From the NCBI RefSeq assembly GCF_001717505.1, contig NZ_CP017037.1, positions 1,135,001 through 1,199,000 of the forward strand: 64,000 nt of DNA, read 5' to 3'. Positions 5,025 through 61,752 of the stretch are shown one piece after another. Origin of the DNA: Dialister pneumosintes. GTDB lineage: Bacteria > Bacillota > Negativicutes > Veillonellales > Dialisteraceae. The notes beneath the pieces were generated by a model. That model searched no databases, had not been told where the DNA came from, and saw only the letters and a program-made list of their open reading frames with translations. The translations under genes and the position numbers were made by a program. Positions within the stretch are counted from its first letter, which is position 1. Every line of letters starts with the position of its first letter.

Positions 5025-5463
5025 GAAAATCGGACTCCTCTCTTACATCGATAATAATTTCATTGACATGCTCAAATAAACCATCTACTGAAATATCATA
5101 GACCATGCGTAAAACACCTATGCCGTTATTCCACGATATATCCAGCTCTCTTGTAATTACTTTCATTCCTAAAATACCCATCGGAGTATTATAATCGGAA
5201 TGCGTTTCTACTCCCACTTTATACTCTTGTCGTTGAAGAAAAGTTCCCGATCGTTCTAAAATAACTCGGTTCTCTTCTATATGAACTGTCGTTGTAGTTC
5301 CTTCCAATCCGACTAATTCAGTTTCCCGGTAGGAAATATAGGGAGTTTCTTCTCTTATCCCTGATACCCCCAATGTTTCCAAAGATAACGTTTCTTCTTC
5401 TCCGGTTGCATCACGAATAACAGTATCTACACGGATTCGAACACGCTTTTCTTTTTCTTCCAT
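4990..5463 (-). CDS. DUF1934 family beta-barrel protein (YwiB-like)
   Basis: A 157-residue protein with alternating beta-strand patterning, no signal peptide and no membrane segment, matching the DUF1934 (YwiB) family of small calycin-like beta-barrels. The function is unknown. It is the first gene of the unit leading to argS and pyrG and overlaps argS by 35 bases, suggesting translational coupling. A GAGAGG ribosome site precedes the ATG. The assignment rests on length, strand pattern and the conserved argS neighbourhood. Confidence 0.75.
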   Translation of the reverse strand: MEEKEKRVRIRVDTVIRDATGEEETLSLETLGVSGIREETPYISYRETELVGLEGTTTTVHIEENRVILERSGTFLQRQEYKVGVETHSDYNTPMGILGMKVITRELDISWNNGIGVLRMVYDISVDGLFEHVNEIIIDVREESDFHGNQGTTAINH

Positions 5464-5579
5464 GTCACGCCTCTCTTCCGCACAAAATCATACACTACAT
5501 TATAACATATCAATAAGCATTTTTGTGGCTTATTACCTATAAATAATCCTAACTTTTATTCTTCTAATGAAAATAAAAA

Positions 5580-10752: not shown

Positions 10753-10793
10753 CAATCGTTAATTACATTGATTCGATAGAAAGGATGATGCAC

Positions 10794-17125: not shown

Positions 17126-17314
17126 TATTATACCACATTCTTATATTGATAGCAGATAAACACTATATGAACACTTCTAGCATCTACTTTTATTAAAATT
17201 AATTATTAAGCGGTATATTGTTATATTATTTATCTTTTACTTATTTATAATTTTGTTATATATTATATAGGTAAACTAATGATTACTCATTTATTTTTTT
17301 CAGGAGGAATTTTT

Positions 17315-18868
17315 ATGAGCAAACAAAATTTTAAAAAATCGGTATTCTTAACGATGGCAATCAGTGCATTTTTAATGGCTCCAATCAGCGGAGTTCATGC
17401 TACACCTACACTCGATGAACTAAATAATCGTCTAACTACTTTAGAGAATGATGTTAATCAGACACTTCCTACCATCGCAGGAAAAGCAAAACAAGTAGAC
17501 TTAAATAACGAAATACAAGCTAGAACTGACAAAGATAATGAACTTGAAGGAAAAATAACAAATCTAACCAATAATAAATCTGATAAAACTTATGTAGATA
17601 CAGAATTGGGTAAAAAAGTAAATGCTACTGATTTTAATCAGTTCAAGAATGATACGAATGCAACATTAACAGGACTTGCTCATGATAAAGCTGCTAAAGC
17701 ATATGTAGATGATGAATTGGCTAAAAAAGCAAATACGGATGATGTTTACAAGAAAGCTGAAACTTATAACCAGACAGAAATCAACGACAAATTAAACAAA
17801 AAGGCTAACTCTGCTGATGTGTACAAAAAATCTGAAACTTATAGCAAGGATGAAGTAAACGCAGAATTAGCTAAGAAAGCAGATAAGACTACCGTAAACG
17901 CTTTAAAAAGCGATCTTGAAAATACAAAAGATAAATTAAGTGATGCCAGAACGGATATTAGATATTTAAAACAAAATAAAGCAGACAAAGTAGAAACAGA
18001 AAATGCGTTAAATACATTGACAACTCGAATCGCTACAGAAGAAACCAATCGTAAAGCGAATGAACGCATCTTACATAAAAATATCGATGAAGTAAACGCA
18101 GAATTAGCTAAGAAAGCAGATAAGACTACCGTAAACGCTTTAAAAAGCGATCTTGAAAATACAAAAGATAAATTAAGTGATGCCAGAACGGATATTAGAT
18201 ATTTAAAACAAAATAAAGCAGACAAAGTAGAAACAGAAAATGCGTTGAATACATTGACAACTCGAATCGCTACAGAAGAAACCAATCGTAAAGCGAATGA
18301 ACGCATCTTACATAAAAATATCCAAGATGAAATTAGTGCTCGTGAATCAGCAGATCATGCATTGTCTGCACGAATCACTGCTGAAGAAACTGTACGTGCA
18401 GAAGCAGATGCTCGTCATGATAGAGAACTCCAAGCAGCTACCCAAAACGTTTCTGATTTACAAAAAGAAGTAAAGAATACTACGTCTATGACGGCTGCTT
18501 TAGCTGCTTTGAAGCCTCTTACATACAACCCAGAAGCTCCTATTCAGATTATGGCAGGTTACGGTAACTATCGTGGACAATCTGCTGCTGCGTTAGGTCT
18601 TGCATACTACAAGAATGAAAATAACTTACTCCACATGGGTGTATCCTATGCTGGCAATAAAGATGTAGCTGCTAACGCAGGTATCACATGGAGAGTAGGT
18701 AAAGGCGTATCCACTACCATGACTTCCGATTCAGAAGTTACCGCTGAATTAAAAGCATTACAGAAAGAAGTTCGTGCATGCAAAGATAGTGAAAAAGCAC
18801 AAAAAGAAATTATCGAATCCATGCAAAAACAAATTGCAGAATTGACCCGTCAATTAGCTGCTAAATAA
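17315..18868 (+). CDS. Trimeric autotransporter, stalk only (YadA anchor)
   Basis: About 517 residues from the ATG at 17315 (AGGAGG six bases upstream; an earlier in-frame ATG lacks a site). A signal peptide ends near VHA, followed by about 370 residues of coiled-coil stalk with KKADK-type repeats and no YadA head domain, then the membrane anchor beginning at AALAALKPLTYNP and containing IQIMAGYGNYRG. About 50 residues of further coiled coil (ALQKEVRAC to the end) follow the anchor, which is unusual because classical members end at the last barrel strand. The stalk contains a 237-bp tandem duplication. Likely an outer-membrane surface fibre; adhesion is inferred only. Confidence 0.88.
   Translation: MSKQNFKKSVFLTMAISAFLMAPISGVHATPTLDELNNRLTTLENDVNQTLPTIAGKAKQVDLNNEIQARTDKDNELEGKITNLTNNKSDKTYVDTELGKKVNATDFNQFKNDTNATLTGLAHDKAAKAYVDDELAKKANTDDVYKKAETYNQTEINDKLNKKANSADVYKKSETYSKDEVNAELAKKADKTTVNALKSDLENTKDKLSDARTDIRYLKQNKADKVETENALNTLTTRIATEETNRKANERILHKNIDEVNAELAKKADKTTVNALKSDLENTKDKLSDARTDIRYLKQNKADKVETENALNTLTTRIATEETNRKANERILHKNIQDEISARESADHALSARITAEETVRAEADARHDRELQAATQNVSDLQKEVKNTTSMTAALAALKPLTYNPEAPIQIMAGYGNYRGQSAAALGLAYYKNENNLLHMGVSYAGNKDVAANAGITWRVGKGVSTTMTSDSEVTAELKALQKEVRACKDSEKAQKEIIESMQKQIAELTRQLAAK
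17849..18322 (+). repeat. 237-bp in-frame tandem duplication in the stalk
   Basis: Two copies (17849-18085 and 18086-18322), each 79 codons, are nearly identical; one difference seen is TTAAAT versus TTGAAT. The near-identity implies a recent duplication or ongoing homogenisation, and copy number may vary between strains. Confidence 0.92.
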
Positions 18869-18929: not shown

Positions 18930-19151
18930 TTATGCTGTTATAAAACTTTATACTTTACATAACTTCGATACTTATTAACCCTTATATACTTAAATTATAT
19001 AGATAATATCATATGTTTAGCTATTCCTAAATTTGTGTTAATAAATGCAAAAAAATCATAAATACACCTCTTTATATATCTAAAAAATATGATATACTTA
19101 TATCCGGTTTTATTCATTTTTTGTGTTTTGTTTAATTTTTTGGAGGAATTT

Positions 19152-37367: not shown

Positions 37368-38639
37368 TCATACTTTTTTGATGTAACCGCCCAACTTTTG
37401 AAAATCTTTCCAAAATAAAGGATAAGATTTATTAACACATTCGGCTTGCTCTATAAGTAATTCTTTTTTACAGCGACAAGAAGCTACTGCCAATGCCATA
37501 GCTATGCGGTGATCATTCCATGAAGAAACGACACCTCCCGAAAAAGAAGAAACTCCTTCAATGATAACTTCCTCTGCATTTTCTTTTATCTTAGCACCTA
37601 TTTTGGATAATTCCACTGTCATCGCATGCACACGATCACACTCTTTTAAACGTACTCTGGATACTCCCTTAATAATAGATTTTCCCTTTGATAAAGCACA
37701 AACTACTGCTAAAACAGGAAATAAATCCGGACAATCCGATACATCAAAATTATACGCCGTTAAAAGAGTTTCTTTTATACATAATTCTTCTTGATTCCAA
37801 TAAAGTTTTCCATTCATTTGAGAAATAAATTTTTGAAAAACAGCATCGCCTTGTAAAGAATTTTTAGAAAGTCCTTGTATACTAATATCTCCATAAAGAG
37901 AAGCTGCCGCTATCCAAAAAGTAGATTGTGAATCATCTCCGGATATTCTAAATTTTCCATTTTTATATGTCTGATTTCCTTCTATTTTATATGTATATGT
38001 ATTTTCTTTACTGATAGATATACCAAATAAAGATAAACATTGTTTAGTAACAGCAAGATAAGAAGATGATTCTAAAGGAGGAATAATATTAATAATAGAA
38101 TTTCCATCCAAAAGAGGACATACCATAAAAAGACCAGTAAAAAATTGAGAACTGCTATTTCCAGGTAATGTATAAACAGAAGGAACTATACTTCCTTTAA
38201 CAAGCAAAGTCTTTTCTTCTTCAAGAAAGATTGCTTTTTTTAAACAATCTACATAAGGATATATAGGTCTTTGTGCAAGATGCCCCTGTCTATCATATTT
38301 CATTTCTTTATTAAGAAACAAACCGAGCGGAATACAAAAACGAAGTGTAGAACCTGATTCCATACAATCTACTTCTACTACTCCTTTTTTAGTAGATAAA
38401 CCACCTTGTATTTTATAGATATATTTTCCATTGTTCTTTTTTTCTATACAAGAAAAAGTAGCTCCCCATGCAGATAAAATATGCATGGTAGTTTCTATAT
38501 CGTTAGAAAGAGTAATATTTTCTATGTAACTGGTTCCTTCTGCTAAAGCAGCTCCGATACACAGACGATGTGCTTCACTTTTAGAAGAAGGGATTTCTAT
38601 CTTTCCTTGTAAAAAAGAGGGTGTAATTTTTATATTCAT
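37368..38639 (-). CDS. aroA: 5-enolpyruvylshikimate-3-phosphate synthase
   Basis: A 423-residue enzyme joining shikimate-3-phosphate and phosphoenolpyruvate. SSKSEAHR (18-25), SGSTLRF (93-99), GDDSQSTFWIAAA and the C-terminal NDHRIAMALAV match the family. It overlaps aroB by four bases. Confidence 0.95.
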   Translation of the reverse strand: MNIKITPSFLQGKIEIPSSKSEAHRLCIGAALAEGTSYIENITLSNDIETTMHILSAWGATFSCIEKKNNGKYIYKIQGGLSTKKGVVEVDCMESGSTLRFCIPLGLFLNKEMKYDRQGHLAQRPIYPYVDCLKKAIFLEEEKTLLVKGSIVPSVYTLPGNSSSQFFTGLFMVCPLLDGNSIINIIPPLESSSYLAVTKQCLSLFGISISKENTYTYKIEGNQTYKNGKFRISGDDSQSTFWIAAASLYGDISIQGLSKNSLQGDAVFQKFISQMNGKLYWNQEELCIKETLLTAYNFDVSDCPDLFPVLAVVCALSKGKSIIKGVSRVRLKECDRVHAMTVELSKIGAKIKENAEEVIIEGVSSFSGGVVSSWNDHRIAMALAVASCRCKKELLIEQAECVNKSYPLFWKDFQKLGGYIKKV

Positions 38640-39712
38640 AAGGAACTTCCTGTAGCAAGATATGTAGATATCTGTTCTAAAGGTACTCTTATAAGTTTAG
38701 GATTTCCTATAGATTCTAAAATAACTAAAGTAATAAAATCTCCTCGTATTTTTTTATCATGCATAATATAAGGCATTAACTTTTCAATAGAAATAGATGT
38801 TTTTATTGGAAGATGCAAAAGAGAAAGTATTTCTTTTATTTTTTTTGCAGTTCCTTTTTCTGTAAGTCCCATACGTTCTGTATTTTCAGTAATAACGCTC
38901 ATTCCGATAGACACCGCTTCTCCATGAGAAATTCCCTGATAATTTTTAAAACTTTCTAAAGCATGTGCTAAGGTATGTCCAAAATTTAAAAGCATACGAA
39001 GTCCTGACTCTTTTTCATCTTTTTCTACGATAGAAACTTTATATTGACAACTCTTTTCTATTATATTTTCTAAATTTTTTTCTATATCTTCTTTCATTTT
39101 TATAGATTCAAAAAGAGTAAATAAAGAAAGTTCCCCAATACAACCACATTTTACAGCTTCTGCCAATCCATCATAAAAATAATGTACAGACAAAGTTTTT
39201 ATAACATCTACATCTATAAACACTGCTTTCGGCTGATAAAAACTGCCTGCTAAATTTTTTCCACCATCTAAATCAATAGCTACTTTTCCACCCACAGAAC
39301 TGTCTACCTGTGCCAAAATAGTAGTAGGTACTTGTATAAAAGGAATCCCACGTAGATAAGTAGATGCAGCAAATCCACCTAAATCTCCGATAACACCACC
39401 GGAAAGTGTAAGTAATAAATCACTACGAGTTATACCAAAATCCGTTAACTGATTATATATATATCTCAACATGTCTAAATTTTTGCTGCATTCTCCATGA
39501 GGTATAACAATACGACGAGCTGAAATATATTCTTTTAATAACGAATTTTCTACTACTTCACCATATAAAGAATCTACAATATCATCAGTAACAATGGCAA
39601 CTTTATCAAATGAATATTTATTTTTTATTAAAGAACCTATACCAGAAAGAAAATTTCTACCTATAAAAATAGAATAAGAATCATCTTGCAAATGAACATC
39701 TATTTTTTTCAT
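38636..39712 (-). CDS. aroB: 3-dehydroquinate synthase (canonical)
   Basis: A 358-residue NAD- and metal-dependent enzyme making 3-dehydroquinate from DAHP. All key motifs are canonical: GGVIGDLGGF, STYLRGIPF, AQVDSSVGGK, GKNLAGSFYQPK, GLAEAVK, NFGHTLAHALE and SHGEAVSIGM. It is the first gene of the operon aroB-aroA-aroC-aroE-aroK. The DAHP synthase and aroD genes are elsewhere. Contrast the altered paralogue at 10794-11876. Confidence 0.96.
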   Translation of the reverse strand: MKKIDVHLQDDSYSIFIGRNFLSGIGSLIKNKYSFDKVAIVTDDIVDSLYGEVVENSLLKEYISARRIVIPHGECSKNLDMLRYIYNQLTDFGITRSDLLLTLSGGVIGDLGGFAASTYLRGIPFIQVPTTILAQVDSSVGGKVAIDLDGGKNLAGSFYQPKAVFIDVDVIKTLSVHYFYDGLAEAVKCGCIGELSLFTLFESIKMKEDIEKNLENIIEKSCQYKVSIVEKDEKESGLRMLLNFGHTLAHALESFKNYQGISHGEAVSIGMSVITENTERMGLTEKGTAKKIKEILSLLHLPIKTSISIEKLMPYIMHDKKIRGDFITLVILESIGNPKLIRVPLEQISTYLATGSSL

Positions 39713-49016: not shown

Positions 49017-50729
49017 ATGAAGAAAAATAAAATATTATGTGCATTGATTATAAGTCAATTGATTACTTATGGAACAGGGAGTATTTTTTATAGTTAGGTA
49101 GAATCAAATACCAGTCCATTAGCAAAGGGTGAATATTCATTCTCTATGGGAGAAAGAACGGAAGCGCAAGGAATTCGTGCAGTAGCGACCGGATATGCAA
49201 CTAAAGCAATGGGAGAAAATTCTTTTACGGCAGGTGAAAACACACAGGCGGAAGGAAGAAACTCTGTTGCAACAGGTTATAAAACTAAGGCGACTGGAAC
49301 GAATGCAGCAGCTTTTGGTGAAGGATCTGAAGCGACAGGGGTAGTTTATTTTACTGCCGGGCTTAATAATAAAGCAAGCGGTCAATCATCGACTGCTCTG
49401 GGTAACTTATCTCAAGCAACAGGAGCAGCTTCTTTTGCCGGCGGATTACGAACAGAAGCATCCGGGGTTGCCTCTACAGCTATGGGTGACTCTACCAAAG
49501 CGACTGGAGTTATATTTACAGCTATGGGATGGAAAACGGAAGCCAGCGGACAACAATCTACTGCTATAGGAACATTGTCTAAAGCCAGCGCACATTCATC
49601 TTTTGCTGCAGGAAATCAAACCGAAGCAAGTGGGGATGCTTCTACTGCTATGGGTATGGAAACCAAAGCAACTGGAGTTATATCTACAGCTATGGGATGG
49701 AAAACGGAAGCCAGCGGACGACAATCTACTGCTATAGGAACATTGTCTAAAGCCAGTGCACATTCATCTTTTGCTGCAGGAAGTGAAACCGAAGCATACT
49801 CATTAGCTACCGGGAATAATACGGAATCCGTTGGAGAAAACTCTTTTTCAGGAGGTTTGCGTTCTCAGGCGATAGGAGACAGCTCCTTGGATTTTGGCGT
49901 AGACAGTAAGGCAAAAGGTCGTTATGCCGTAGCATTAGGTGAAGGAAGTACAGCAAGTGGAAAAGCGGCAACCGCTTTAGGTGAAAACTCTACTGCTAAA
50001 GGAAATAATTCTTTTGCAAGTATGGGCGGATTTGCACAAGGTAACAACTCCTTAGCCTTAGGAAGAGGAGCATTTGCTCAGATAGACGATTCGTATACTA
50101 TCGGTGCAGGAAGTATAGCAAATCGAGCAGCGGGGATGGCAGGTTATTTATCGAATGGTCGAACCGGTGCAGAATGGAAAGCGACAGGAAATGCAGTATC
50201 TATAGGAAGTGTTGATAATGGAGTTACTCGACAAATAACAGGAGCGGCGGCAGGAACGGAAGATACGGATGCGGTAAACGTAGCACAGCTAAAGGAAATG
50301 ACAAAGCCTGTAGACTGGAGTGGAATGGGAGCACAGGCAGCCGCCTTGGCAGCGTTAAAACCGATGCAGTATGATCCGTTAGAACCGACGCAGATAATGG
50401 CAGGTTATGGTAACTATAGAGGAAGCAGTGCATTAGCATTGGGGATAGCACATTATCAGAATGAAAGTAAGATGATTAATGCTGGCGTATCCTATGGAGG
50501 TCATAACAAGTTTATGACGAATTTGGGTGTGACCTGGAAGGTAGGATCCGGAAACAAGGAAGAAAAACAGGAAGAAGCATATAGAAAAGGACCGGTAACT
50601 TCCGTTTATGTTTTTGAAGAAGTAGTACGTGATTTGAAGGCTGAAAACCATGAGCAGAAAGAGCAGATTGAAAATTTAAATAAAGAAGTAGAGTCTTTGA
50701 AAGCTTTGGTTAATCAGCTTATCAAGTAA
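49017..50729 (+). pseudogene. Trimeric autotransporter with YadA head, interrupted by an amber codon
   Basis: The ATG at 49017 opens a signal peptide (MKKNKILCALIISQ...) that stops at TAG 49095-49097; the same frame then continues without interruption to 50729. The downstream part is a YadA-type head of about 300 residues made of 14-residue SxAxG repeats, including a near-identical 168-bp repeat pair (about 49503 and 49671), then a short neck, the anchor (AALAALKPMQYDP, TQIMAGYGNYRG) and a coiled-coil tail of about 60 residues. An ATG at 49146 could start translation but would lack a secretion signal. Suppression, a sequencing error or inactivation are all possible. Confidence 0.8.
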
Positions 50730-50742
50730 TTTTTGAATCAAT

Positions 50743-50773
50743 AAAAAGAGTAGTGATGAAAACTACTCTTTTT
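50743..50773 (+). terminator. Terminator of the third autotransporter gene
   Basis: AAAAGAGTAGT / ACTACTCTTTT hairpin with a T run, about 14 bases after the stop codon. Confidence 0.85.
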
Positions 50774-50840
50774 TGTTTTCTAAATATAGTGTTACGATGC
50801 ACTTAACGTATAAAGGTATTCTGAAAAAAGGAGATTGCTT

Positions 50841-50991
50841 ATGTTATATAGTAGGGAAAAACCATATAATCATTTACCTTTCATATTATCGAAAATAGAT
50901 GTAGAAATAAAAAGTTCTAAAAAAGGTAAATAAGGTTAATAAAGCGTTAAGTGAATTAAAAGGATGGTCACCACATCAGTGCAATCCTTAA
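50841..50991 (+). pseudogene. Remnant of a Fic-family protein N-terminus
   Basis: An ATG with GGAG upstream starts MLYSREKPYNHLPFILSKID, stopping at 50933. In another frame the sequence continues VNKVNKALSELKGW to TAA at 50991. Together these match the typical N-terminal helices of Fic proteins (LPxxPPKIDLET then ANKALAELKGW), so this looks like a frameshifted and truncated fic gene. The catalytic HPFxxGNG part is absent. Confidence 0.6.
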
Positions 50992-50993
50992 AT

Positions 50994-51026
50994 AAAAAGG
51001 GCAGCAGTTAAAAGCTGTTCTTTTTT
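50994..51026 (+). terminator. Terminator after the Fic remnant
   Basis: An AGGGCAGC / GCTGTTCT stem with G-T pairs is followed by a run of T, just after the remnant. Confidence 0.65.
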
Positions 51027-51142
51027 GTTGTTACTGTTTTTAGAGAGTAGCAGGTCATTGTTTTATGTTAATGGGTGTTGTAAGGTTGCTTTTTATAAAA
51101 AGAAAAAGCCTCTCTTTTTGGTAGGCTAGAGATATATTCGTT

Positions 51143-51152
51143 GTTCCGGAAC
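51143..51152 (+). promoter_or_regulatory. 10-bp palindrome GTTCCGGAAC upstream of the sigma-factor gene
   Basis: A perfect palindrome 70 bases before the preferred sigma start. It pairs with GCTCCGGAGC at 51818-51827 before the DUF2922 gene; both have ACTCTC next to them. A shared control site is inferred. Confidence 0.4.
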
Positions 51153-51221
51153 TCTCACAGACGAATTTCAACATATGTATCCATTCTTGTGAAAATGGAT
51201 AGGGTAAGAAATGAGTCGATT

Positions 51222-51779
51222 ATGAACAACTTTAACAGACTAAGTGATGAAGAATTAATACTTTCTTATAGAAAAGGGAATCGAGCAGCCAAAGACATAC
51301 TCTGTCAACGATATATTCCTTTAGTAAAAAAGCTTATAACAGCTCCTTTCGTTTATCGATTTCGAGAAGATTTGGAACAAGCTTTGTGGATAATTTTTTG
51401 TGAAAGAATAGAAAGCTACGATGTAAAGAAAGCAAAATTTTCGACCATGATATCTAAAATACTACGATTTGAACGAGCAAATTATTTTCGGAGAGAAAAG
51501 AAGCGTTGGATTCATGAAGTAAGCGGAATCATAAAAGAGAAAAGTAGTGAAGAAATTTATGTAAGGCTGGAAAGAGAAGAAATCTCTTGTTTTTTAAAGG
51601 AATTTGACAAGCAGCTATCTAGACAAGCATTAGAAGTTTTCAGAAAATTACTTACCGGTTATTTGAGTGAAAGACAATTAGCAGAAAAATTAGGTGTCAG
51701 CAGACATAGCATTCGGAAGTGTAAGAAAGAAATTCGGAATACTTTTTATTCTATACAGAAATCTTTGCAACCAAAATAA
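51222..51779 (+). CDS. Sigma-70-like RNA polymerase sigma factor
   Basis: About 185 residues from the ATG at 51222; earlier in-frame starts at 51195 and 51141 cannot be excluded because no strong ribosome site was seen. The N-terminal part (LSDEELILSYRKGNRAAKDI, then FREDLEQALWIIF) looks like sigma region 2, and the C-terminal YLSERQLAEKLGVSRHSIRKCKK is a region 4-type helix-turn-helix. It heads a cassette of five small genes and probably activates it. Similar small sigma factors control phage-like, bacteriocin or toxin genes in Firmicutes. Confidence 0.78.
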   Translation: MNNFNRLSDEELILSYRKGNRAAKDILCQRYIPLVKKLITAPFVYRFREDLEQALWIIFCERIESYDVKKAKFSTMISKILRFERANYFRREKKRWIHEVSGIIKEKSSEEIYVRLEREEISCFLKEFDKQLSRQALEVFRKLLTGYLSERQLAEKLGVSRHSIRKCKKEIRNTFYSIQKSLQPK

Positions 51780-51817
51780 GAATTTAAGAATGGTAAGTAA
51801 TAGAGAGAGAACTCTCT

Positions 51818-51827
51818 GCTCCGGAGC
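51818..51827 (+). promoter_or_regulatory. 10-bp palindrome GCTCCGGAGC upstream of the DUF2922 gene
   Basis: A perfect palindrome 28 bases before the DUF2922 start, resembling GTTCCGGAAC at 51143-51152. A small hairpin (AGAGAG / CTCTCT) lies just upstream. Confidence 0.4.
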
Positions 51828-51854
51828 GTATTTCCAGTTTGAAAGGAGAAGTAT

Positions 51855-52070
51855 ATGATGGAAGTAAAGAAGTTAAGAATGGTATTCAACACTAATGATC
51901 AAGGCACTTTAGCAATCGATGTTCCCAATCCGAGAGAGGAATTAACTTTAGTCGATGTGCAGAATGGTGCTAATCAAATTATTCCTGTTTTGATGACTAC
52001 GAAAGGTGTAAAAGCGAACGACTTGAAGCGTGCACTTATCATCACAACTAAGGAAGAAGAGCTTAAATAA
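51855..52070 (+). CDS. DUF2922 family protein
   Basis: A 71-residue protein matching DUF2922 (KKLRMVFNTNDQGTLAIDVPNP, then DLKRALIITT). It has no signal peptide or cysteine. The function is unknown. GAAAGGAG precedes a double ATG. In Firmicutes it is commonly next to DUF1659 and sigma-like genes. Confidence 0.8.
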   Translation: MMEVKKLRMVFNTNDQGTLAIDVPNPREELTLVDVQNGANQIIPVLMTTKGVKANDLKRALIITTKEEELK

Positions 52071-52095
52071 GTTGATAAAGAGGAGGAACTGACAT

Positions 52096-52311
52096 ATGGC
52101 AATATCTAAAGTGGTAGAAAAGAATCGATTGATTGTATCTGTAACTAATGAAGAGACCGGAAAGCATAAGCAACTTTCTTTTTCTCGTATTGACCCGAAA
52201 GCTAATGATGAAGCATTGCATAGTGCAGGAGAAGCTATCGGGAATTTACAGAAATATCCGGTAGCAGGTATTGAGCTTACTGTAACTGCTGCACTTCGTT
52301 CTGACGGATAA
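52096..52311 (+). CDS. DUF1659 family protein
   Basis: A 71-residue protein matching DUF1659 (KQLSFSRIDPKANDEALHSAGEAIGNLQ). The function is unknown. GAGGAGG lies 10 bases upstream. It is followed by a terminator, splitting the cassette into a DUF2922-DUF1659 part and a membrane/hydrolase part. Confidence 0.8.
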   Translation: MAISKVVEKNRLIVSVTNEETGKHKQLSFSRIDPKANDEALHSAGEAIGNLQKYPVAGIELTVTAALRSDG

Positions 52312-52317
52312 ATAAGA

Positions 52318-52347
52318 AAGACCGAGCCTATAAGACTCGGTCTTTTT
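52318..52347 (+). terminator. Terminator after the DUF1659 gene
   Basis: AAAGACCGAG / CTCGGTCTTT hairpin with six T residues. Only 16 bases separate it from the next start codon, so it may act as an attenuator that sets the ratio of the downstream genes. Confidence 0.8.
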
Positions 52348-52363
52348 TGTAAGGAGGTGACTT

Positions 52364-52504
52364 ATGAAAGTACAATGGAAACGTATATGGAAAATAATAG
52401 CACCCTATGTTATTGAATGTCTTATTGAAAGCTTATCGTTGCTTAAAAAAGGAGATAAAAAAGAGGAATCTATCCAAGAACAAGAAGGGGTGAGCTTACG
52501 ATGA
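52364..52504 (+). CDS. Small protein of 46 residues in the sigma-factor cassette
   Basis: ATG with AAGGAGG seven bases upstream; sequence MKVQWKRIWKIIAPYVIECL and a charged C-terminus. One hydrophobic or amphipathic helix, no recognised family. It ends in ATGA overlap with the next gene. YvrJ-type proteins occupy this place in comparable clusters, but this sequence is not clearly one. Confidence 0.6.
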   Translation: MKVQWKRIWKIIAPYVIECLIESLSLLKKGDKKEESIQEQEGVSLR

Positions 52505-52767
52505 GCAGTTTATTACGAGAATTTCTTCCTTTTTTGACCGTTATTGCTGCGTTAGCGGCTATTGTTCGTCAATTCATAGCAATTACAGAAAAAAGTTATG
52601 AGTTTCATAAGAAACAATTAGCATGGTTAGCAAAAGAGCTTTCTGATACAAGGGAAGAAATGGTTCATTTACGAAAATCTATTGAAAAGTTACAACAAGA
52701 AGTAGCACAGTTATATAAAAAACGAAAGAAGGGAGAAATGATTTATGCACAAGGAAGAACTTGCTAA
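52501..52767 (+). CDS. Small membrane protein with coiled coil, holin-like
   Basis: 88 residues: an N-terminal hydrophobic helix (FLPFLTVIAALAAIVRQFIAI) followed by a long amphipathic helix with heptad spacing and a basic end (YKKRKKGE). This layout resembles BhlA/UviB-type holin-like peptides. The next gene, overlapping by 23 bases, encodes a putative wall hydrolase, which fits a holin-endolysin pair, though direct evidence is absent. Confidence 0.6.
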   Translation: MSSLLREFLPFLTVIAALAAIVRQFIAITEKSYEFHKKQLAWLAKELSDTREEMVHLRKSIEKLQQEVAQLYKKRKKGEMIYAQGRTC

Positions 52768-53302
52768 GTACATTGCAGAGGGGATTATTGTAACCGGTGT
52801 AGAAGGGACTTATAATGATGTATCTTGTTCGAGTGCCGGAGATTACCCTTCTTTGGGCATTTCGCAGTGGGAGGGGGAACGAGCGGATACCTTGCTTTTA
52901 CAATTGGATGATGGAGGTTATTATAGAAACCGATCTTATAGTGATTTAAAAAGCACCGGAGATATAGTCAACTTGAAAAATTTACTTGCTACAGAACAAG
53001 GACGGAAAATACAGGAGGAACAATTACAAAAAGATGCATGTAATTATGTAGATATGCTTCTTTTAATTCCCTTAAAAAATACAGCATCTATTGTATATGC
53101 AGGACTTTGGTGCCCTACATCGACTTGGGTTGTGCAAGCTTTTCTAACAAATCGAAATAAGAGTTATGATTTAAACGATGTAGAAGTACTTAGTGATGTA
53201 TTTAAGCGTTTTTATGCGAGAGCTGCAGGTGTATCTGCGTATACGCTGCGAGCTGATGAACAACTTCGCTATGTAAAAAGTAAGAAAGAACTTTATAGAT
53301 AA
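52745..53302 (+). CDS. Putative lysozyme-like cell-wall hydrolase
   Basis: 185 residues with no signal peptide. Near the N-terminus GVEGTYNDVSCSSAGDYPSLGISQWEG resembles the catalytic segment of lysozyme-like hydrolases found in phage endolysins (Glu19 would be catalytic). The rest is helical and unassigned. GGGAG precedes the ATG. Last gene of the sigma-factor cassette. The enzymatic activity is inferred from the motif and the neighbouring holin-like gene. Confidence 0.6.
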   Translation: MHKEELAKYIAEGIIVTGVEGTYNDVSCSSAGDYPSLGISQWEGERADTLLLQLDDGGYYRNRSYSDLKSTGDIVNLKNLLATEQGRKIQEEQLQKDACNYVDMLLLIPLKNTASIVYAGLWCPTSTWVVQAFLTNRNKSYDLNDVEVLSDVFKRFYARAAGVSAYTLRADEQLRYVKSKKELYR

Positions 53303-53339
53303 GTAAAAAGAAGTGCATACGCACTTCTTTTTACTTATC
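53298..53339. terminator. Strong bidirectional terminator
   Basis: A 19-bp perfect stem (GATAAGTAAAAAGAAGTGC and its complement) with a 4-base loop between the convergent hydrolase and 150-residue genes; the minus-strand stop codon lies inside it. Confidence 0.85.
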
Positions 53340-53783
53340 TTTTGGAGTATGTAGTACGATGGATACGAATAAATCAGCACATTTTTCATCCATATTTTCT
53401 AATGTGATATCTGAATATCCTTTTTCTTGCAACTCTTTACATAAAAGCATTCTCGTATCTAGAGGTAAACAATGAATTAAATCAATGAATTTTGATAAAT
53501 CCAAATGAGACATCATCCAACTAATTTGGGATTCCGTTAATGATTCCGTTTCTGAAAATAATTGACGTAAATAGGTCGGAGAGCGATCACAGATAGGATG
53601 TGTAGTATCGTGAAAAGAATAGGGGTGATTGTTGGAGTTTGTAAAATTTTCTGTAATTAACCAAAAGATATATGCCACAAAATCGTCATGCGTTCGACCA
53701 TTTCCTATATAACGATAATAAAATTTGATACATTGGTGTATCGGGACAGCGTTTCTTTTCTTAATAATACACTTTTTTTCCAT
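53331..53783 (-). CDS. Hypothetical protein (150 residues)
   Basis: A soluble, His- and Ser-containing protein without recognised motif, signal peptide or membrane helix. Helical segments such as LTESQISWMMSHLDLSKFIDLIHCLP are visible. GGAGG precedes the ATG. It is convergent to the sigma-factor cassette and stops within the shared terminator; it could be its regulator or immunity function, but nothing in the sequence proves this. Confidence 0.6.
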   Translation of the reverse strand: MEKKCIIKKRNAVPIHQCIKFYYRYIGNGRTHDDFVAYIFWLITENFTNSNNHPYSFHDTTHPICDRSPTYLRQLFSETESLTESQISWMMSHLDLSKFIDLIHCLPLDTRMLLCKELQEKGYSDITLENMDEKCADLFVSIVLHTPKDK

Positions 53784-53895
53784 AATGCCTCCTTTTTCTC
53801 TTTTACAATAGGTTGTATTAAGGTAAATTATTAAATTTCTAATATTTATACAAATATTAGAGCTGTAGACTTTTATTAATCATTAGGAGAGCAAT

Positions 53896-54912
53896 ATGTA
53901 CGAACCCTTAATTTCTATTATTGTTCCGGTATATAAAGTAGAAAAATATATTCATCGTTGCATTGAAAGTGTATTGCATCAAACGTATACGAATTGGGAA
54001 CTGATTCTCGTTGATGACGGTTCACCGGATTCTTGTGGTCGCATTTGTGATGAATATGCTATGTACCATGATAAAATAGTGGTCATTCATAAAATAAATC
54101 AAGGAGTAGGTGCGGCTCGTAATACCGGGCTTCATAGAGCAGAGGGGGAGTGGATATATTTTTTAGATTCTGATGATTTTATTAAGGAAGATACATTAGA
54201 AAAGATGATTACTTTTTCTAATGAAGGGTCCTATGATATTGTCATGGCAGGGCATAGTATTTTAAAATCTAGCGGAAAATTTATTCCTTGTTCGGATAGC
54301 TGGAATGAATCAGATGATACCTCTACCATTCAAAAGAAAATTTTATTAGATGAATTGCCTAATTTTAGTTGTGGGAAATTATATAAACGAATTTTATGGG
54401 AAAATGTATATTTTCCTGTGGATATGCTTATTGAAGACATGTATATCAATCCTACTCTTTTTTATCGAGCAAAACATATCTGTATTCATAAAGAAGCTCT
54501 TTATTATTATAGTCATGAAAATACAAACAGTATTATGCGTAGTAAAGAATTTACTACTTATATGCTTAATAAGTATGGTCGTTTTCTTGCTTGGGAAGAA
54601 CATGTACGTATAGCAACTATCCATGCACCGGAATTAGTGCCGATATGCACAAAATATACTATATTAGCGGCTATTAAAGCATTGCTGGTTTATTATGGTA
54701 CGGATAAGAAGGATGCTCGAATAGACGAGTCAAAACCGTTACATTTTTTAAAAACGCATACGGATAATTCTTTACCTTTTATAAAAAAGTGGCAAAGAAA
54801 ATTACTTTTAAGTCATGCTGAAGTAGTTGTTGTTATGGGGCGACTTTATAGAAATGCTTTTAGTTTACGAATATTGTTTAAAAATATAAAGAATATATTG
54901 AGAAATAAGTGA
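53896..54912 (+). CDS. GT2 family glycosyltransferase, copy 1
   Basis: A 338-residue GT-A fold transferase: LISIIVPVYKVEKYIHRCI, LVDDGSPDSCG, GVGAARNTGL and the metal-binding DSDDF are intact, and the C-terminal third is variable. It uses a nucleotide sugar to extend a surface glycan. AGGAG precedes the ATG. The first third is nearly identical to copy 2, starting at 54929. Confidence 0.92.
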   Translation: MYEPLISIIVPVYKVEKYIHRCIESVLHQTYTNWELILVDDGSPDSCGRICDEYAMYHDKIVVIHKINQGVGAARNTGLHRAEGEWIYFLDSDDFIKEDTLEKMITFSNEGSYDIVMAGHSILKSSGKFIPCSDSWNESDDTSTIQKKILLDELPNFSCGKLYKRILWENVYFPVDMLIEDMYINPTLFYRAKHICIHKEALYYYSHENTNSIMRSKEFTTYMLNKYGRFLAWEEHVRIATIHAPELVPICTKYTILAAIKALLVYYGTDKKDARIDESKPLHFLKTHTDNSLPFIKKWQRKLLLSHAEVVVVMGRLYRNAFSLRILFKNIKNILRNK

Positions 54913-54928
54913 TAGTAAAGGATGGATT

Positions 54929-55940
54929 ATGTACGAACCCTTAATTTCTATTATTGTTTCGGTATATAAAGTAGAAAAATATATTCATCGTTGTATCGAA
55001 AGTGTATTGCATCAAACATATACGAATTGGGAACTGATTCTCGTTGATGACGGTTCACCGGATTCTTGTGGTCGCATTTGTGATGAATATGCTATGTACC
55101 ATGATAAAATAGCGGTCATTCATAAAATAAATCAAGGAGTGGATGCGGCTCGTAATACCGGGCTTCATAGAGCAGAGGGGGAGTGGATATATTTTTTAGA
55201 TTCTGACGATTTTATTAAAGAAAATGCATTAGAAAAGATGATATCGTACTCGCAAGAAGGCTTATATGATATGGTTATAGCCGGTTTTTATTATTTGCAA
55301 CCGGACGGAAGTCTTATTCATGGATCTGCTTACTGGGAAGATTCAAAAGATACACATCGCCTGCAAAAAGATAGTTTAGTAGATGCCTTATTTAGCATAG
55401 TTTGTGGGAAATTATATAAGCGAATTTTATGGGAAGGCGTCTATTTTCCTGTAGGATTATTAATTGAAGATACGTATATAAGCTCTACTCTTTTTTATCG
55501 TGCTAAACGTATTTGTAGTTATAGAGAAGCACTTTATTATTATAGCTATGAAAATACAGATAGTATTATGCGAAGTAAGACAAGGAAGACTTATATATAT
55601 AATAGATATTGTCGTTTTTTAGCATGGGAAGAACATATACGCATAGCATCTATCTATGAAGCGGATTTAGTACCGGTATGTACAAGAAAAGCGTTGTTAG
55701 CAGCAATAAAAGCACTTCTTTTATACTATGGAATCGGATGTAAAAATAGTCGAGTCGATTTTACGTCTGTTAGATTTTATAAAAAAGCATCCCGATAATT
55801 CTTTACCTTTACGTAAAAAAATACAAAGGATACTTTTATTGCATATACCCTATGTCACAGGAAGTGGTTATCAATTCCTCTTGGAATGTAGAATAGGCTT
55901 GAAACAAGTAAAGAAAATTATAAAAAATAAATATTCATAA
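54929..55940 (+). pseudogene. GT2 family glycosyltransferase, copy 2, 3-prime frameshift
   Basis: The first 289 residues (to 55798) contain all catalytic motifs of GT2. The frame then ends with VRFYKKASR, while the next frame (to 55940) continues the expected tail LLDFIKKHPDNSLPLRKK, matching HFLKTHTDNSLPFIKK of copy 1. A single-base indel near 55750-55780 is therefore likely. The catalytic domain could still be made; only the C-terminal tail is lost. The 5-prime 330 bases are nearly identical to copy 1. Confidence 0.75.
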
Positions 55941-57226: not shown

Positions 57227-59038
57227 ATGTTAACTAAAAAGCAATTTGATCTATTGCATTATTTGAATAATTGTAAAATAGTTCCTACACAAAGGATGAT
57301 GGCTACCGCCATAGAACTTTCTCTTGGAAGTGTCAATAAACTTTGGAAAGAGATGGAAGAAAAAGAATATATAAAAAAGGGACTCCTGTCTGAAAAAGGA
57401 AAAGAAGCATTGGCACCTTATAAAGTGGAAAATGCAATGATTATGGCAGCCGGGAAAGGAACTCGGTTTGTTCCTTTGACCTATGAAATCCCGAAAGGAT
57501 TACTTCGTGTCAAAGGAGAAGTATTAATAGAAAGACAAATTGAGCAATTGCGTAAAGCTGGGATTCATAATATTACCGTAGTTGTTGGATATATGCAGGA
57601 GCATTTTTTCTATTTGGAAGATAAGTATGATGTAAAAATTGTGATTAATACGGATTATTATCGATATAACAATACATCGACTTTAATGGCAGTATTGGAA
57701 GAATTAGGGAATACGTATATTTGCTCTTCGGATAATTATTTTGTAGATAATGTATTTACTCCTTATGTATACGAAGCATATTATGCAGCGCAATATGCGA
57801 CGGGTACCACCGGTGAATATTGCATAACGACTAATTCACATGGAGTCATAACCGATGTAGTTATTGGTGGGAGTAATTCTTGGTACATGATGGGGCATGT
57901 TTACTTTTCAAAAGCATTCAGTGAAAAATTTTCTGATATTTTGAAAGAAGAGTATCAAAAAGAAGAAACGAAGCAGTTGCTTTGGGAAGATGTGTATATT
58001 AAACATATTGATAAATTGTCGATGGTTATGAAACCTTATGATTCTCATAAGATTTTAGAGTTTGACTCTTTAGATGAATTAAGAGAGTTCGATTTTTCTT
58101 ATGTTGATAATGTAGACTCTTCGATTATGACAAATATTTGTCATGCACTTTCTTGCAAAGCCAGGGATATTACACAAATTCGTATTCTGAAAAAAGCTGC
58201 CGGTTATATGGCATTTCGCTTTATATGCAAACAGAAAAGATATGTATATGTATTACCCGATTGGAGCCAAAAAGGACAATCCGTATGGGAGAAGAAAGCA
58301 AAATTTCTAACCCTTGCACAGTCTTTAGGGATGTATACACAAAGTGTGTATTTTGATAAATACAAAGGTTGGGAAATTCTTGCTGTAGAAAAAGAATATA
58401 AACCGCTCAATCCTCAGTCGGAAGACGAAGTAAAAAAGGTAGTAGCCACCTATCGTAAGCTCCATCATTCCGGGATTCTTTCCGGATACTCGCTTAATAT
58501 TTGGGAAGAAATAGAAAGAAATCAAAAAGAGATGGAAGAAATGCAAGTTAAAATGCCATCCGATTTTAACACGATGTACAACCGTATAAAAGAAATATGG
58601 GAAGACGTTTCCCGTTTGTCTTCGATGCAAACGGTTTTATGTTACAACGGTGCAAACTTGGAAGAAATTCTTATTGATGAAGAAAAACAAGTTTCTTTTA
58701 CTAATTGGCAGTTTGCAGGAGATGCACATCCTGCCTGTGATATAGGTTCTTTTATCAGTCATATGCCGATTAATACGCATTCTATGGTTTCTTGTGTACA
58801 TATTATAGAAGAGTATATGCAATCTAAAGTATCCGAATATATGCTGATTCCTTTTGTACAATATGCAGCTATTATGTCTTTTTATTGGTATGTATGGATT
58901 CTTAGAAGGAAAGCGGAAGGCGCATTATTAGAAGATAAAGTTTATCATTACTATAAAGCAACCCGATTTTATGCAACATCTGCACAAAATCTCGTTATAC
59001 CTATTTTAGAAGAGGAGAATACCAATGATACCCCTTAG
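57227..59038 (+). CDS. licC: LicC-like phosphocholine cytidylyltransferase fused to winged helix and pseudokinase
   Basis: 603 residues in three parts: a winged-helix-like region (1-60), a nucleotidyltransferase domain with MIMAAGKGTRFVPLTYEIPKG (71-91), matching LicC which makes CDP-choline, and a C-terminal domain (about 310-590) with the choline-kinase (APH) fold. In that last domain the catalytic motifs are changed: CYNGANLEE (472-480) in place of HxDxxxxN and NWQ (493-495) in place of DWE, so it is probably an inactive kinase. AAGGA precedes the start. The next gene, overlapping by 14 bases, encodes an intact kinase. Confidence 0.85.
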   Translation: MLTKKQFDLLHYLNNCKIVPTQRMMATAIELSLGSVNKLWKEMEEKEYIKKGLLSEKGKEALAPYKVENAMIMAAGKGTRFVPLTYEIPKGLLRVKGEVLIERQIEQLRKAGIHNITVVVGYMQEHFFYLEDKYDVKIVINTDYYRYNNTSTLMAVLEELGNTYICSSDNYFVDNVFTPYVYEAYYAAQYATGTTGEYCITTNSHGVITDVVIGGSNSWYMMGHVYFSKAFSEKFSDILKEEYQKEETKQLLWEDVYIKHIDKLSMVMKPYDSHKILEFDSLDELREFDFSYVDNVDSSIMTNICHALSCKARDITQIRILKKAAGYMAFRFICKQKRYVYVLPDWSQKGQSVWEKKAKFLTLAQSLGMYTQSVYFDKYKGWEILAVEKEYKPLNPQSEDEVKKVVATYRKLHHSGILSGYSLNIWEEIERNQKEMEEMQVKMPSDFNTMYNRIKEIWEDVSRLSSMQTVLCYNGANLEEILIDEEKQVSFTNWQFAGDAHPACDIGSFISHMPINTHSMVSCVHIIEEYMQSKVSEYMLIPFVQYAAIMSFYWYVWILRRKAEGALLEDKVYHYYKATRFYATSAQNLVIPILEEENTNDTP

Positions 59039-59924
59039 CAAAATAAAAAGAATAGTCACCTCTGTTATGGGTAAGGGGATTAGTGATATTGTTCCGTTAA
59101 AAAAGGGAATGACCAATGACTCTTATATTTTTAGACATGGAGATTCTCGTTATGTACTGCGTTTAAACGGTGTCGGTACGGAAAAACTCATTAATCGAAA
59201 GCAAGAAAGTGATACCTATCGTGCTATAGCCGGACTATCTTTAAGCGATACGGTGATTGCTATTGATGAAAAACAAGGATATAAAATTACAAAGTTCATA
59301 GAAAATGCAAGAACTTGTAATCCGATGAATACAGAAGATGTTTCTTTATGTATGGAAAAGTTGCGTGCTTTTCATGAAAAGAACATACATACATCATATA
59401 CTTTTGATTTGTATCGGATGTTAGATTATTACCAATCCTTATGGATTCGTAAAAAGTCTATGTACGCAGATTATGATGAAGTGAAAAATCGAATTTATAA
59501 TTGGAAACCGTGGATAGAGAAAGTAAATAAAGAACATTGGACACTGACACATATGGATGCCGTTCCGGATAATTTTATGATCACGGATAAACAGGAAGTA
59601 GTTCTTATCGATTGGGAATATGCAGGGATGCAAGACAAACATTTCGATTTAGCGATGTTTGCTATTTATGCAGGCTATACATTGGAAGAGTCAGAACGAT
59701 TAATGCATATTTATTTTAAAGGAGAATGTTCTTCAGAATTATATATTCGTATATTGGCATATCATGCTATCGGAGGCTTGTTATGGAGTAATTGGTGTGA
59801 ATTTAAAGAAGATATGGGCATTCATTTTGGAGAATATGCACAAAAACAATATGAATACGCCAAAGAATATTCGTTGTTAGTCGATACTCTTTTACAAGAA
59901 TTGAAGACTGGAGGTAAGTTATGA
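59025..59924 (+). CDS. licA: Choline kinase (LicA-like)
   Basis: A 299-residue cytosolic kinase of the choline/ethanolamine kinase family. Brenner motif THMDAVPDN (His176, Asp178, Asn183) and LIDWEYAG (Asp196) are intact. It phosphorylates choline for activation by LicC. It overlaps licC by 14 bases and licB by four bases. No tetranucleotide repeat like the CAAT tracts of Haemophilus licA was seen near the start. Confidence 0.88.
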   Translation: MIPLSKIKRIVTSVMGKGISDIVPLKKGMTNDSYIFRHGDSRYVLRLNGVGTEKLINRKQESDTYRAIAGLSLSDTVIAIDEKQGYKITKFIENARTCNPMNTEDVSLCMEKLRAFHEKNIHTSYTFDLYRMLDYYQSLWIRKKSMYADYDEVKNRIYNWKPWIEKVNKEHWTLTHMDAVPDNFMITDKQEVVLIDWEYAGMQDKHFDLAMFAIYAGYTLEESERLMHIYFKGECSSELYIRILAYHAIGGLLWSNWCEFKEDMGIHFGEYAQKQYEYAKEYSLLVDTLLQELKTGGKL

Positions 59925-60880
59925 TAGGGATACTTACCGGATTATTGAGCGGCTTTTTATGGGGTGTTAATAATTTATTGATTTCACTCGGTTATACGCA
60001 TATTCCTTTTGCAATCATGAATAGAGAAGATTCTTTATTATGGTTTTTCGGTATTCCTCTTGCTTGCGTAGCATTAACGGATAGTGCCGCTGCTATTTCT
60101 TTGTTGTTACTTAATATAGGGAGAGGGCTTTTCTCACGTATACGAAAATCTTTTTGTACACGTGCCGGTGCCGTCATTTGTTTTGCTGCGCTTCTTGGTG
60201 GCCCCATCGGGCAGTCTTCCTATGTCATGGGAATTGCATTAGCCGGTCCTGCCAGTGCTTTGCTTCTATCTTCCTTATATCCTATCGTAGGTTGTTTACT
60301 GGCAGCTTTTTGGCTTAAGCAACCTATTACTAAAAAGATGTGGATAGGTATTTGTTTATCTGTCGTAGGAGGTACTCTAGTCGGGTATTCTCCTGAACAA
60401 TCTTTGACAGATACCTTTTATATGGGAGTCATATTTTCATTACTGGCAGCTCTTTGTTGGGGCAGTGAAAGCGTAGTGGCGGTATATGGCATGCAACATA
60501 TACTGCCGGATATTGCGATTACCATTCGTGAATGCGTGTCAGCGATTACACTCTGGGTTGCTATTCTTCCTTTTGTGCGTGGTTACACGGCGATTCCTTC
60601 CATTTGCAGTGAAAAAGAAGCGTTACTCTTTTTCTTGTTTGCAGGAATTGCTGCCGGCATTTCCTATTTACTTTGGTATCGTGCCAATAACACTATCGGT
60701 TGTGCGAAAGGGATGGCAACCAATATTACTTATATCATTTGGGGTTGCCTTCTGACCTATATATGGGGAGACTCTTCTGAAATTACGGTCTCTATGTTGA
60801 TAGGTTGCACTTGTGTCATCATCGGAGTACTTCTCGTTACGGTTAATCCCTCTGAATTAATAGAAAAAACAAAAGAATAA
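59921..60880 (+). CDS. licB: EamA/DMT-type choline permease (LicB-like)
   Basis: A 319-residue protein with about ten hydrophobic segments and two EamA repeats (GLLSGFLWGVNNLLISLGY near the N-terminus; SLLAALCWGSESVVAVYG near the middle). In lic1 operons the corresponding gene LicB imports choline. The assignment as choline permease rests on position after licC and licA. Confidence 0.82.
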   Translation: MIGILTGLLSGFLWGVNNLLISLGYTHIPFAIMNREDSLLWFFGIPLACVALTDSAAAISLLLLNIGRGLFSRIRKSFCTRAGAVICFAALLGGPIGQSSYVMGIALAGPASALLLSSLYPIVGCLLAAFWLKQPITKKMWIGICLSVVGGTLVGYSPEQSLTDTFYMGVIFSLLAALCWGSESVVAVYGMQHILPDIAITIRECVSAITLWVAILPFVRGYTAIPSICSEKEALLFFLFAGIAAGISYLLWYRANNTIGCAKGMATNITYIIWGCLLTYIWGDSSEITVSMLIGCTCVIIGVLLVTVNPSELIEKTKE

Positions 60881-60912
60881 AAAGCAGATAGAAATTTCTA
60901 TCTGCTTTTTAT
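60878..60912. terminator. Bidirectional terminator between licB and licD
   Basis: AAAAGCAGATAGAAA / TTTCTATCTGCTTTT hairpin with flanking A and T runs, between convergent genes. Confidence 0.85.
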
Positions 60913-60960
60913 TATGTATGTATCTTATATTTATGTTTTTCGGTTTAGATAAAAAATTAC

Positions 60961-61752
60961 CTATTCTTTGAGAATATGATTCTTTGTATGATAGGAGAGC
61001 CTTTCTTTTTCCGGGGGAAGTTGCATATAGTCACCATAATAGTGACGTAGATAAGCATCGTATTGGGCGATGGCAGGGAAGAGGTGACCGTTAAAAGGGA
61101 CGTCTACAAAATGTTTTAAGTAATTTGTCGGAAGGCGTTCTCTTAGCATGTCATTCGAAGAACCGAGCATGATGGCACCATAGGTGTTTTCTTTATCACG
61201 ATGGCGAGCAATTTCTTTTTCTAATTGGGAAAATACTTTGTCGGGGTGGAACATCGGAAATAAAGTTGCCAAGAGTTTCCATAGAGGTTTATGCATTCGT
61301 TTACGAATAATATGAAATTGTCTTCCTAAACGATGAACTTTAGCAAAATACTTTTTCGCTTCTTGTTCATCTTCCGGTAAGGTATCGATTACAAAAATAT
61401 CCATGAATAAACCGATATCAAAATCATCCCGTGGATAAGTCGGAGCGGTATTATTGGCATACCATTTTCCACTTTCACCGGCAAATGCATTGCTGGTTGT
61501 GCGATTGGTAGTGAGCGTATATCCTTCTTTAGGATACTGCATCCATACTTTTGTCAGCTTGTCGTATTCTTGGCGTGTCATCATAACATCAATATCATCA
61601 TCCCAGGGGATAAATCCTTGATGTCTGATAGCACCTATCAGTGTACCTCCACATAAAGAATAATGGATGGCATGTTTTTTACAAAAAGAATCAAAAGCAA
61701 CTAAAGAAGACAATAAATATTCTTGGAGTTCTATTAAAGTCAGTTTTTTCAT
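60961..61752 (-). CDS. licD: LicD family phosphocholine transferase
   Basis: A 263-residue protein of the LicD family, transferring phosphocholine from CDP-choline to a surface glycan. The core signature YSLCGGTLIGAIRHQGFIPW followed by DDDIDVMM, with the metal-binding Asp cluster, is clear, and a second motif WYANNTAPTYP occurs later. It is convergent to licC-licA-licB. Confidence 0.92.
   Translation of the reverse strand: MKKLTLIELQEYLLSSLVAFDSFCKKHAIHYSLCGGTLIGAIRHQGFIPWDDDIDVMMTRQEYDKLTKVWMQYPKEGYTLTTNRTTSNAFAGESGKWYANNTAPTYPRDDFDIGLFMDIFVIDTLPEDEQEAKKYFAKVHRLGRQFHIIRKRMHKPLWKLLATLFPMFHPDKVFSQLEKEIARHRDKENTYGAIMLGSSNDMLRERLPTNYLKHFVDVPFNGHLFPAIAQYDAYLRHYYGDYMQLPPEKERLSYHTKNHILKE

Follow-up and report, generated by a model that had tools for sequence, protein, structure and literature searches.

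A chromosomal sigma factor cassette of a Dialister-family bacterium joins DUF2922 and DUF1659 to putative phage-derived lysis genes

The window analysed here is a 64,000-nucleotide stretch of the 1.27 Mb genome of a member of the Negativicutes, from the family containing Dialister. At 51195-53302 it carries a compact run of genes, all on the + strand, which encode in order a sigma-70-type factor, a DUF2922 protein, a DUF1659 protein and, beyond an intrinsic terminator, products of 46, 88 and 185 amino acids (Table 1). The reading frames of the last three overlap one another. A preliminary description of this DNA had counted five genes, having overlooked the 46-aa open reading frame, and the cassette in fact has six. 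The parts that it did list, namely a sigma factor at the head, the DUF2922 and DUF1659 genes, a hairpin behind them, a membrane peptide with a coiled coil and a putative lysozyme-like wall hydrolase, all in surroundings free of phage structural genes, were recovered in our analysis.

Table 1. Features of the cassette, with positions counted from the first letter of the window.
Feature	Position	Strand	Basis
Sigma-70-type factor	51195..51779	+	TIGR02937, Sigma70_r2; start is ATG 51195 or 51222
Short leader hairpin upstream of DUF2922, agagagaactctct	51804..51822	+	Predicted fold
DUF2922 protein, 71 aa	51855..52070	+	PF11148, E 3.2e-12
DUF1659 protein, 71 aa	52096..52311	+	PF07872, E 5.9e-15
Intrinsic terminator at the boundary of DUF pair and lysis genes	52312..52350	+	Fold, z -6.0
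Putative amphipathic or membrane-active peptide, 46 aa	52364..52504	+	ORF, AGGAGG ribosome-binding site
Holin-like or i-spanin-like protein with one TM segment and coiled coil, 88 aa	52501..52767	+	Layout, hydrophobicity
Predicted endolysin, lysozyme superfamily, 185 aa	52745..53302	+	Predicted structure, fold matches, prophage relatives
Cassette-closing terminator hairpin	53300..53338	.	-22.6 kcal/mol, z -9.5

The neighbours of the cassette are QueF, a YadA-like adhesin, an LmuA-like gene and glycosyltransferases, and the window's ORF list together with Pfam and PHROG scans yielded no phage structural genes among them. A bacteriocin gene was likewise not found among these neighbours, and the ORF list and domain scans gave no cargo gene in the cassette or adjoining it. 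An Rfam scan of 50700-53900 returned nothing close to gathering score, and a reading of the cassette as a defence system was set aside, PADLOC having given no match of note within it. Convergent with the cassette, at 53331-53783 (-), lies a 150-aa gene that corresponds to the N-terminal part of LmuA, a Lamassu effector (PADLOC E 3.1e-13); no LmuB partner was noticed alongside, and the gene is rare, being found in 4 of 200 genomes of the class. YadA-type adhesins are encoded at 49146-50729, 17279-18868 and 19089-20333, and in the first of these the YadA anchor is followed by an extra charged coiled-coil tail and the listed start lacks a signal peptide. The first halves of the two adjacent glycosyltransferase genes at 53896-55798 are nearly the same, the product of a recent tandem duplication, and a lic1-like phosphocholine set at 57227-61752 (nucleotidyltransferase, choline kinase, EamA transporter and LicD by Pfam) suggests that surface glycans are decorated with phosphocholine. 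Elsewhere, the window holds two 3-dehydroquinate synthase-like genes, at 10785-11876 (+) and 38636-39712 (-), and an outer-membrane barrel-like protein that is encoded as two pieces, at 12427-12867 and at 13210-13569, and may reflect a porin gene that has been split or frameshifted. The same genome also has a second phage-type lysin set at positions 4473-5714 of locus L315 (G000:C1, about 312972-314213), where a GH25-like gene is followed by a spanin-like gene, with a phage-type repressor and an ImmA-like gene nearby.

The first gene product is sigma-70-like by TIGR02937 (E 9.4e-10, 38.4 bits against a cut-off of 42.9) and by Sigma70_r2 (E 7.7e-5, 22.8 bits against a Pfam cut-off of 24), and homologs in related loci pass the cut-off for region 4 of sigma-70. 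Because the host genome has four or five sigma-70-type genes in all, this protein is one of few alternative sigma factors available to the cell. Of 200 Negativicutes genomes searched with it in full, 100 contain a homolog. An N-terminal HTH_16 domain (PF12645) marks the sigma factors of Group V (TcdR/UviA-like); for this domain the window's protein gave E 0.17, and relatives gave 4.4e-5, which passes the cut-off, and 2.4e-4, which narrowly misses it. As a candidate promoter motif shared by the sigma gene and DUF2922 we considered the 8-base GAACTCTC and the word CGNATTTC upstream of both genes; their spacing differs, and these words were abandoned when no motif proved to be kept across relatives.

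Both small proteins that follow are well over their Pfam cut-offs, DUF2922 (PF11148) at 51855-52067 with 46.6 bits against 25.5 and DUF1659 (PF07872) at 52096-52308 with 55.3 bits against 24.1. In the genomes sampled, DUF2922 was present in 237 of 300 from Negativicutes and in 124 of 249 from Bacillota; it had no match in the B. subtilis control genome, and a single DUF2922 protein used as query found none in phage records. DUF1659 is predicted to adopt a beta-beta-alpha-beta fold (pLDDT 86) for which the PDB offered nothing worth quoting (best Z 5.0). A comparison of their profiles, made to see whether the two are paralogs, gave a probability of 48%. The preliminary description held that DUF1659 has no known role. 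Among 34 DUF1659 proteins, 8 are recognised by the NCBIfam model for SroA, a regulator under SigS control in S. aureus, at a best E of 7.8e-4, any other model matching at most one, so that the apparent relationship to SroA may make the statement outdated. The equivalog cut-off of the SroA model (NF049869) was far from reached, with 13.5 bits against 80, and for the window's own DUF1659 this model gave E 0.054. DUF1659 thus looks related to SroA by distant kinship only, a lead on the role of the pair and not proof of membership. In S. aureus, SigS directly drives sroAB and SroA raises sigS mRNA (PMC13192611), an arrangement that resembles the cassette in placing two small proteins in the regulon of a sigma factor and differs from it in that sroAB is not described as a lysis operon. 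By analogy with SroA and SroB for SigS, the DUF pair would most likely be a regulator of the sigma circuit.

The hairpin behind the DUF pair is a strong intrinsic terminator (-20.1 kcal/mol, with none of 200 shuffles as good), and the leader hairpin upstream of DUF2922 folds no better than shuffles (z -0.2). The terminator lies only about 14 bases ahead of the next ribosome-binding site, with no promoter identified in between, so transcription would have to pass it to reach the genes beyond; since the DUF pair and the lysis genes are on opposite sides of the terminator, a single transcript is not a given. A hairpin stands at the same position in most loci of the Dialister family, and in five loci of a sister family (L071, L072, L074, L075 and L077) a hairpin (TGCCTTGGGC...) follows DUF2922 and precedes a sigma gene located downstream. 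In many loci of the YvrJ type, however, YvrJ comes straight after the pair and there is mostly no hairpin. We therefore rejected the terminator as a general feature, and regulated read-through is at most an idea for the family.

Two small proteins of putative membrane type precede the hydrolase. The 46-aa ORF follows an AGGAGG ribosome-binding site, and short peptides containing W and P occupy the same position in four related loci (L057, L066, L067 and L068). The 88-aa protein has one hydrophobic segment, with a best 19-residue Kyte-Doolittle mean of 2.06, and C-terminal to it a charged, helix-prone, coiled-coil-like stretch. No family exceeded its cut-off for this protein in Pfam, PHROG or NCBIfam searches, in which PHROG 739 gave E 0.003; the BhlA family is absent from its Pfam list, and short peptides score low in any library. 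Its single transmembrane segment, position and gene overlap make it holin-like, a putative holin, and its transmembrane and coiled-coil layout, like the PHROG 739 match, could point to the spanin type. A 104-aa counterpart with the same layout, also overlapping a hydrolase gene, is found in D. micraerophilus (L060 and L210). No spanin was recognised after the hydrolase in the cassette of this diderm host.

The 185-aa hydrolase had no match in Pfam, PHROGs or NCBIfam and no sequence match in the PDB; used as a query it found nothing among phage records and plasmids nor, as a single query, among viral contigs. Relatives of about 45% identity, which are prophage endolysins, are present in 23 of 380 Negativicutes genomes and on 27 IMG/VR viral contigs. 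In their loci the hydrolase gene lies downstream of small membrane proteins and of phage tail genes, one of which Pfam names Tail_P2_I, and a spanin-like coiled-coil protein comes after it in 14 of 21, an arrangement that places these relatives in the endolysin position. A structure modelled from an alignment of 32 sequences reached a pLDDT of 94.8. Foldseek against the PDB ranked GH46 chitosanases (prob 0.97) and T4-type lysozymes best with no significant E-value, VIA-align gave Z 11.9 for GH46 chitosanases and 10.0 and 9.9 for the phage endolysins of DLP12 and R21, and the best viral structural match was a PlyB-like endolysin (TM 0.69). Like GH24 phage endolysins and GH46 chitosanases, which it resembles in overall fold (Z about 10 to 12), the enzyme carries a catalytic-type glutamate around residue 20; it differs from them in sequence, with an identity of about 10-13% and no match of any of the 32 aligned members to the GH24 or GH46 Pfam profiles. 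From the model we are confident in assigning the predicted fold to the lysozyme superfamily. Residue E20 is invariant in all 32 aligned sequences and, by sequence position, we infer that it corresponds to the GH46 glutamate mutated in 6lwu and 7c6d (E19A). The window's gene has an intact reading frame that keeps E20, and its N-terminus, read directly (MHKEELAKYIAEG...), shows no visible signal peptide.

We compared loci across genomes and found that DUF2922 adjoins DUF1659 in all 79 Negativicutes loci and in all 40 loci from other Bacillota, with YvrJ following the pair in 43 and 30 of these, respectively. A sigma gene is also a regular neighbour: the window's sigma had 47 matches in genomes for which a DUF2922 position was listed, and 40 of these lay within 1.5 kb of DUF2922, 39 of them on the same strand. 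A wall hydrolase lies within 1.5 kb of the pair on the same strand in 30 of the 79 Negativicutes loci, and by Pfam these are Amidase_3 (15), Amidase_2 (12), the window's type (2) and GH25 (1), four unrelated families whose N-termini show no visible signal peptides; the same profiles found two more, one on the opposite strand, in the remainder of the 7-9 kb loci. These are counts of loci and not of independent events, given that related genomes repeat each other, and the independence of the linkage lies in the differing hydrolase families and sides. Next to the pair, HMMs matched no hydrolase in the 49 other Negativicutes loci or in most loci of Clostridia, so lysis cannot be the sole role of these proteins. 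In Clostridia, hydrolase neighbours were found by HMM in 3 of 40 loci, plus seven Amidase_2-like ones by clustering, and because hydrolase profiles match far less often there, the association is strongest in the Negativicutes.

A genome of the genus Dialister (L065) has sigma, DUF2922, DUF1659, Phage_holin_4_1, GH25 and spanin-like genes in succession, and in six genomes from a different genus of this order a sigma homolog stands directly beside a GH25 gene in the absence of the DUF pair, the two genes overlapping in two of the six. Plasmids of Peribacillus and Geobacillus (Bacillaceae) encode, after DUF1659, DUF2922 and YvrJ, either an Amidase_3 enzyme or an M15 peptidase, and near the pair on a Paraclostridium plasmid there is a divergent amidase. 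Genomes G008 and G009 keep the order DUF2922, DUF1659, peptide and hydrolase with no recognisable sigma gene in front; the hydrolase of G009 (L068) has lost about 45 residues in frame, among them the conserved WCPTS motif, and in G010 the short peptide remains and the hydrolase is absent. In D. micraerophilus DSM 19965 the sigma-DUF pair unit and the membrane-protein/hydrolase pair are at separate places, the hydrolase copy standing alone in the chromosome behind the 104-aa protein with no phage genes around. Linkage of the cassette genes holds for sigma factor, DUF pair and a wall hydrolase, which recur together with other hydrolases, and fails for the exact gene order with the window's hydrolase, which among the loci compared was seen only in the window. 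That description had named a fold unrelated to lysozymes together with a lack of conserved linkage as what would speak against it; we found a lysozyme-type fold and a linkage that recurs. Its reading of the locus as a lysis, secretion or colony-level release programme thus has partial support. Judged from gene neighbourhoods, the association of the sigma/DUF pair with wall hydrolases is not accidental.

Overall, we favour, as somewhat more probable than its competitors combined, the reading that the locus is a chromosomal holin/endolysin module for lysis or release, under its own sigma factor and built from captured phage lysis genes. Under such a scheme, the sigma factor would transcribe its own operon, including the DUF pair, and enough transcription would pass the terminator at 52312-52350, or termination would be relieved, perhaps with the aid of DUF1659 and DUF2922. 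The 46-aa and 88-aa membrane proteins would then open the inner membrane, the endolysin would cross and cut peptidoglycan, and some cells would burst or release cytoplasmic or outer-membrane material. There is precedent in B. subtilis SigO-RsoA, a sigma factor that transcribes yvrJ (PMC8103513), and in the locus of the UviA sigma factor, the UviB holin and an amidase (PMC9527704). Together with the TcdR/TcdE loci, this Clostridium locus resembles the cassette in its dedicated sigma-70-type factor, small holin-like protein, phage-type wall hydrolase and non-phage DNA (PMC9527704, PMC3369941). Unlike those loci, the cassette has DUF2922 and DUF1659 and no bacteriocin or toxin gene, and it differs from UviA/UviB further in that the 88-aa protein has no BhlA match and the hydrolase comes from a lysozyme-superfamily family outside Pfam. 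The type 10 secretion and lysis cassettes of Yersinia entomophaga are similar in consisting of holin and endolysin genes of phage type that a diderm host has domesticated in its chromosome and controls (PMC10101115, PMC10847048), yet they have a PhoB-like regulator, a spanin and known cargo where the cassette has a sigma factor and no recognised spanin or cargo gene. An endolysin lacking a signal peptide is a criterion for type 10 secretion or phage-type lysis cassettes, and the N-terminus of the window's enzyme agrees with it. By analogy, the best reading is that the module works like UviA/UviB or type 10 secretion; because a bacteriocin was not found and holin and spanin are uncertain, we do not file the cassette as either a UviA/UviB locus or a host-controlled lysis cassette.

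The most serious competitor, which we regard as unlikely, is that the sigma-DUF2922-DUF1659 operon simply ends at its terminator and that the lysis genes behind it are a silent or decaying prophage leftover. The terminator itself and the lack of an identified promoter between DUF pair and lysis genes agree with this, as do the prophage setting of the hydrolase's close relatives, the separation of the two units in D. micraerophilus, and the internally deleted or missing hydrolases of G009 and G010. However, a chance remnant leaves unexplained why unrelated hydrolase families occupy the same place across many lineages and why sigma and GH25 genes are neighbours in six genomes without the DUF pair, and the window's hydrolase retains its frame and catalytic residue. 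It is because of the recurrence with unrelated hydrolases that we prefer a functional reading to a parked phage remnant.

Two further readings are non-lytic. The sigma factor might answer wall or DNA damage, with the DUF pair tuning its mRNA, as SroA and SroB do for SigS, and the hydrolase remodelling or recycling the wall non-lethally, as could be argued from the SroA matches among DUF1659 proteins and from SigS, which drives sroAB and whose inducers are genotoxic and envelope stress (PMC13192611). The enzymes, though, have no signal peptide in their N-termini, a feature that suits export through a holin-like pore better, and the window's enzyme is of endolysin ancestry with membrane-protein partners, so we hold this envelope-stress regulon to be distinctly improbable. 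Least credible of all, with hardly any of our confidence, is a non-lytic secretion system or weapon whose holin-like proteins would carry the lysozyme or an unlinked cargo out of the cell, the role suggested for TcdE and UviB: clostridial toxin loci and UviA/UviB do share this set of sigma factor, small membrane protein and hydrolase (PMC9527704), but neither the cassette nor its neighbours supply a cargo gene.

Beyond the single locus, a lysis or release module of this kind invites a more speculative proposal, possible though doubtful in our estimation: that across the phylum a control module made up of DUF1659, DUF2922, YvrJ-type peptides and a dedicated sigma factor governs programmed lysis or holin-type release, unrelated phage hydrolases being plugged into it, with DUF1659 and DUF2922 acting as timers that stabilise the sigma mRNA or relieve the terminator ahead of the lysis genes. 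The likeness of B. subtilis SigO-RsoA (PMC8103513) is that a non-standard sigma factor transcribes a YvrJ gene of the kind that trails DUF1659 and DUF2922 in 43 of 79 loci; SigO-RsoA differs in being a two-subunit sigma, and the window carries a different short peptide in the place of YvrJ. Whatever the fate of this proposal, the analysis brings to light an endolysin family that neither Pfam nor PHROGs model, ties the DUF families to the work on SigS and SroA of S. aureus, and places DUF2922 and DUF1659, which are widespread and lack a clear role, in a concrete setting that can be tested, that of a sigma circuit with links to wall hydrolases. If the favoured reading is true, human-associated diderm Negativicutes would own a built-in route for releasing their contents or vesicles.
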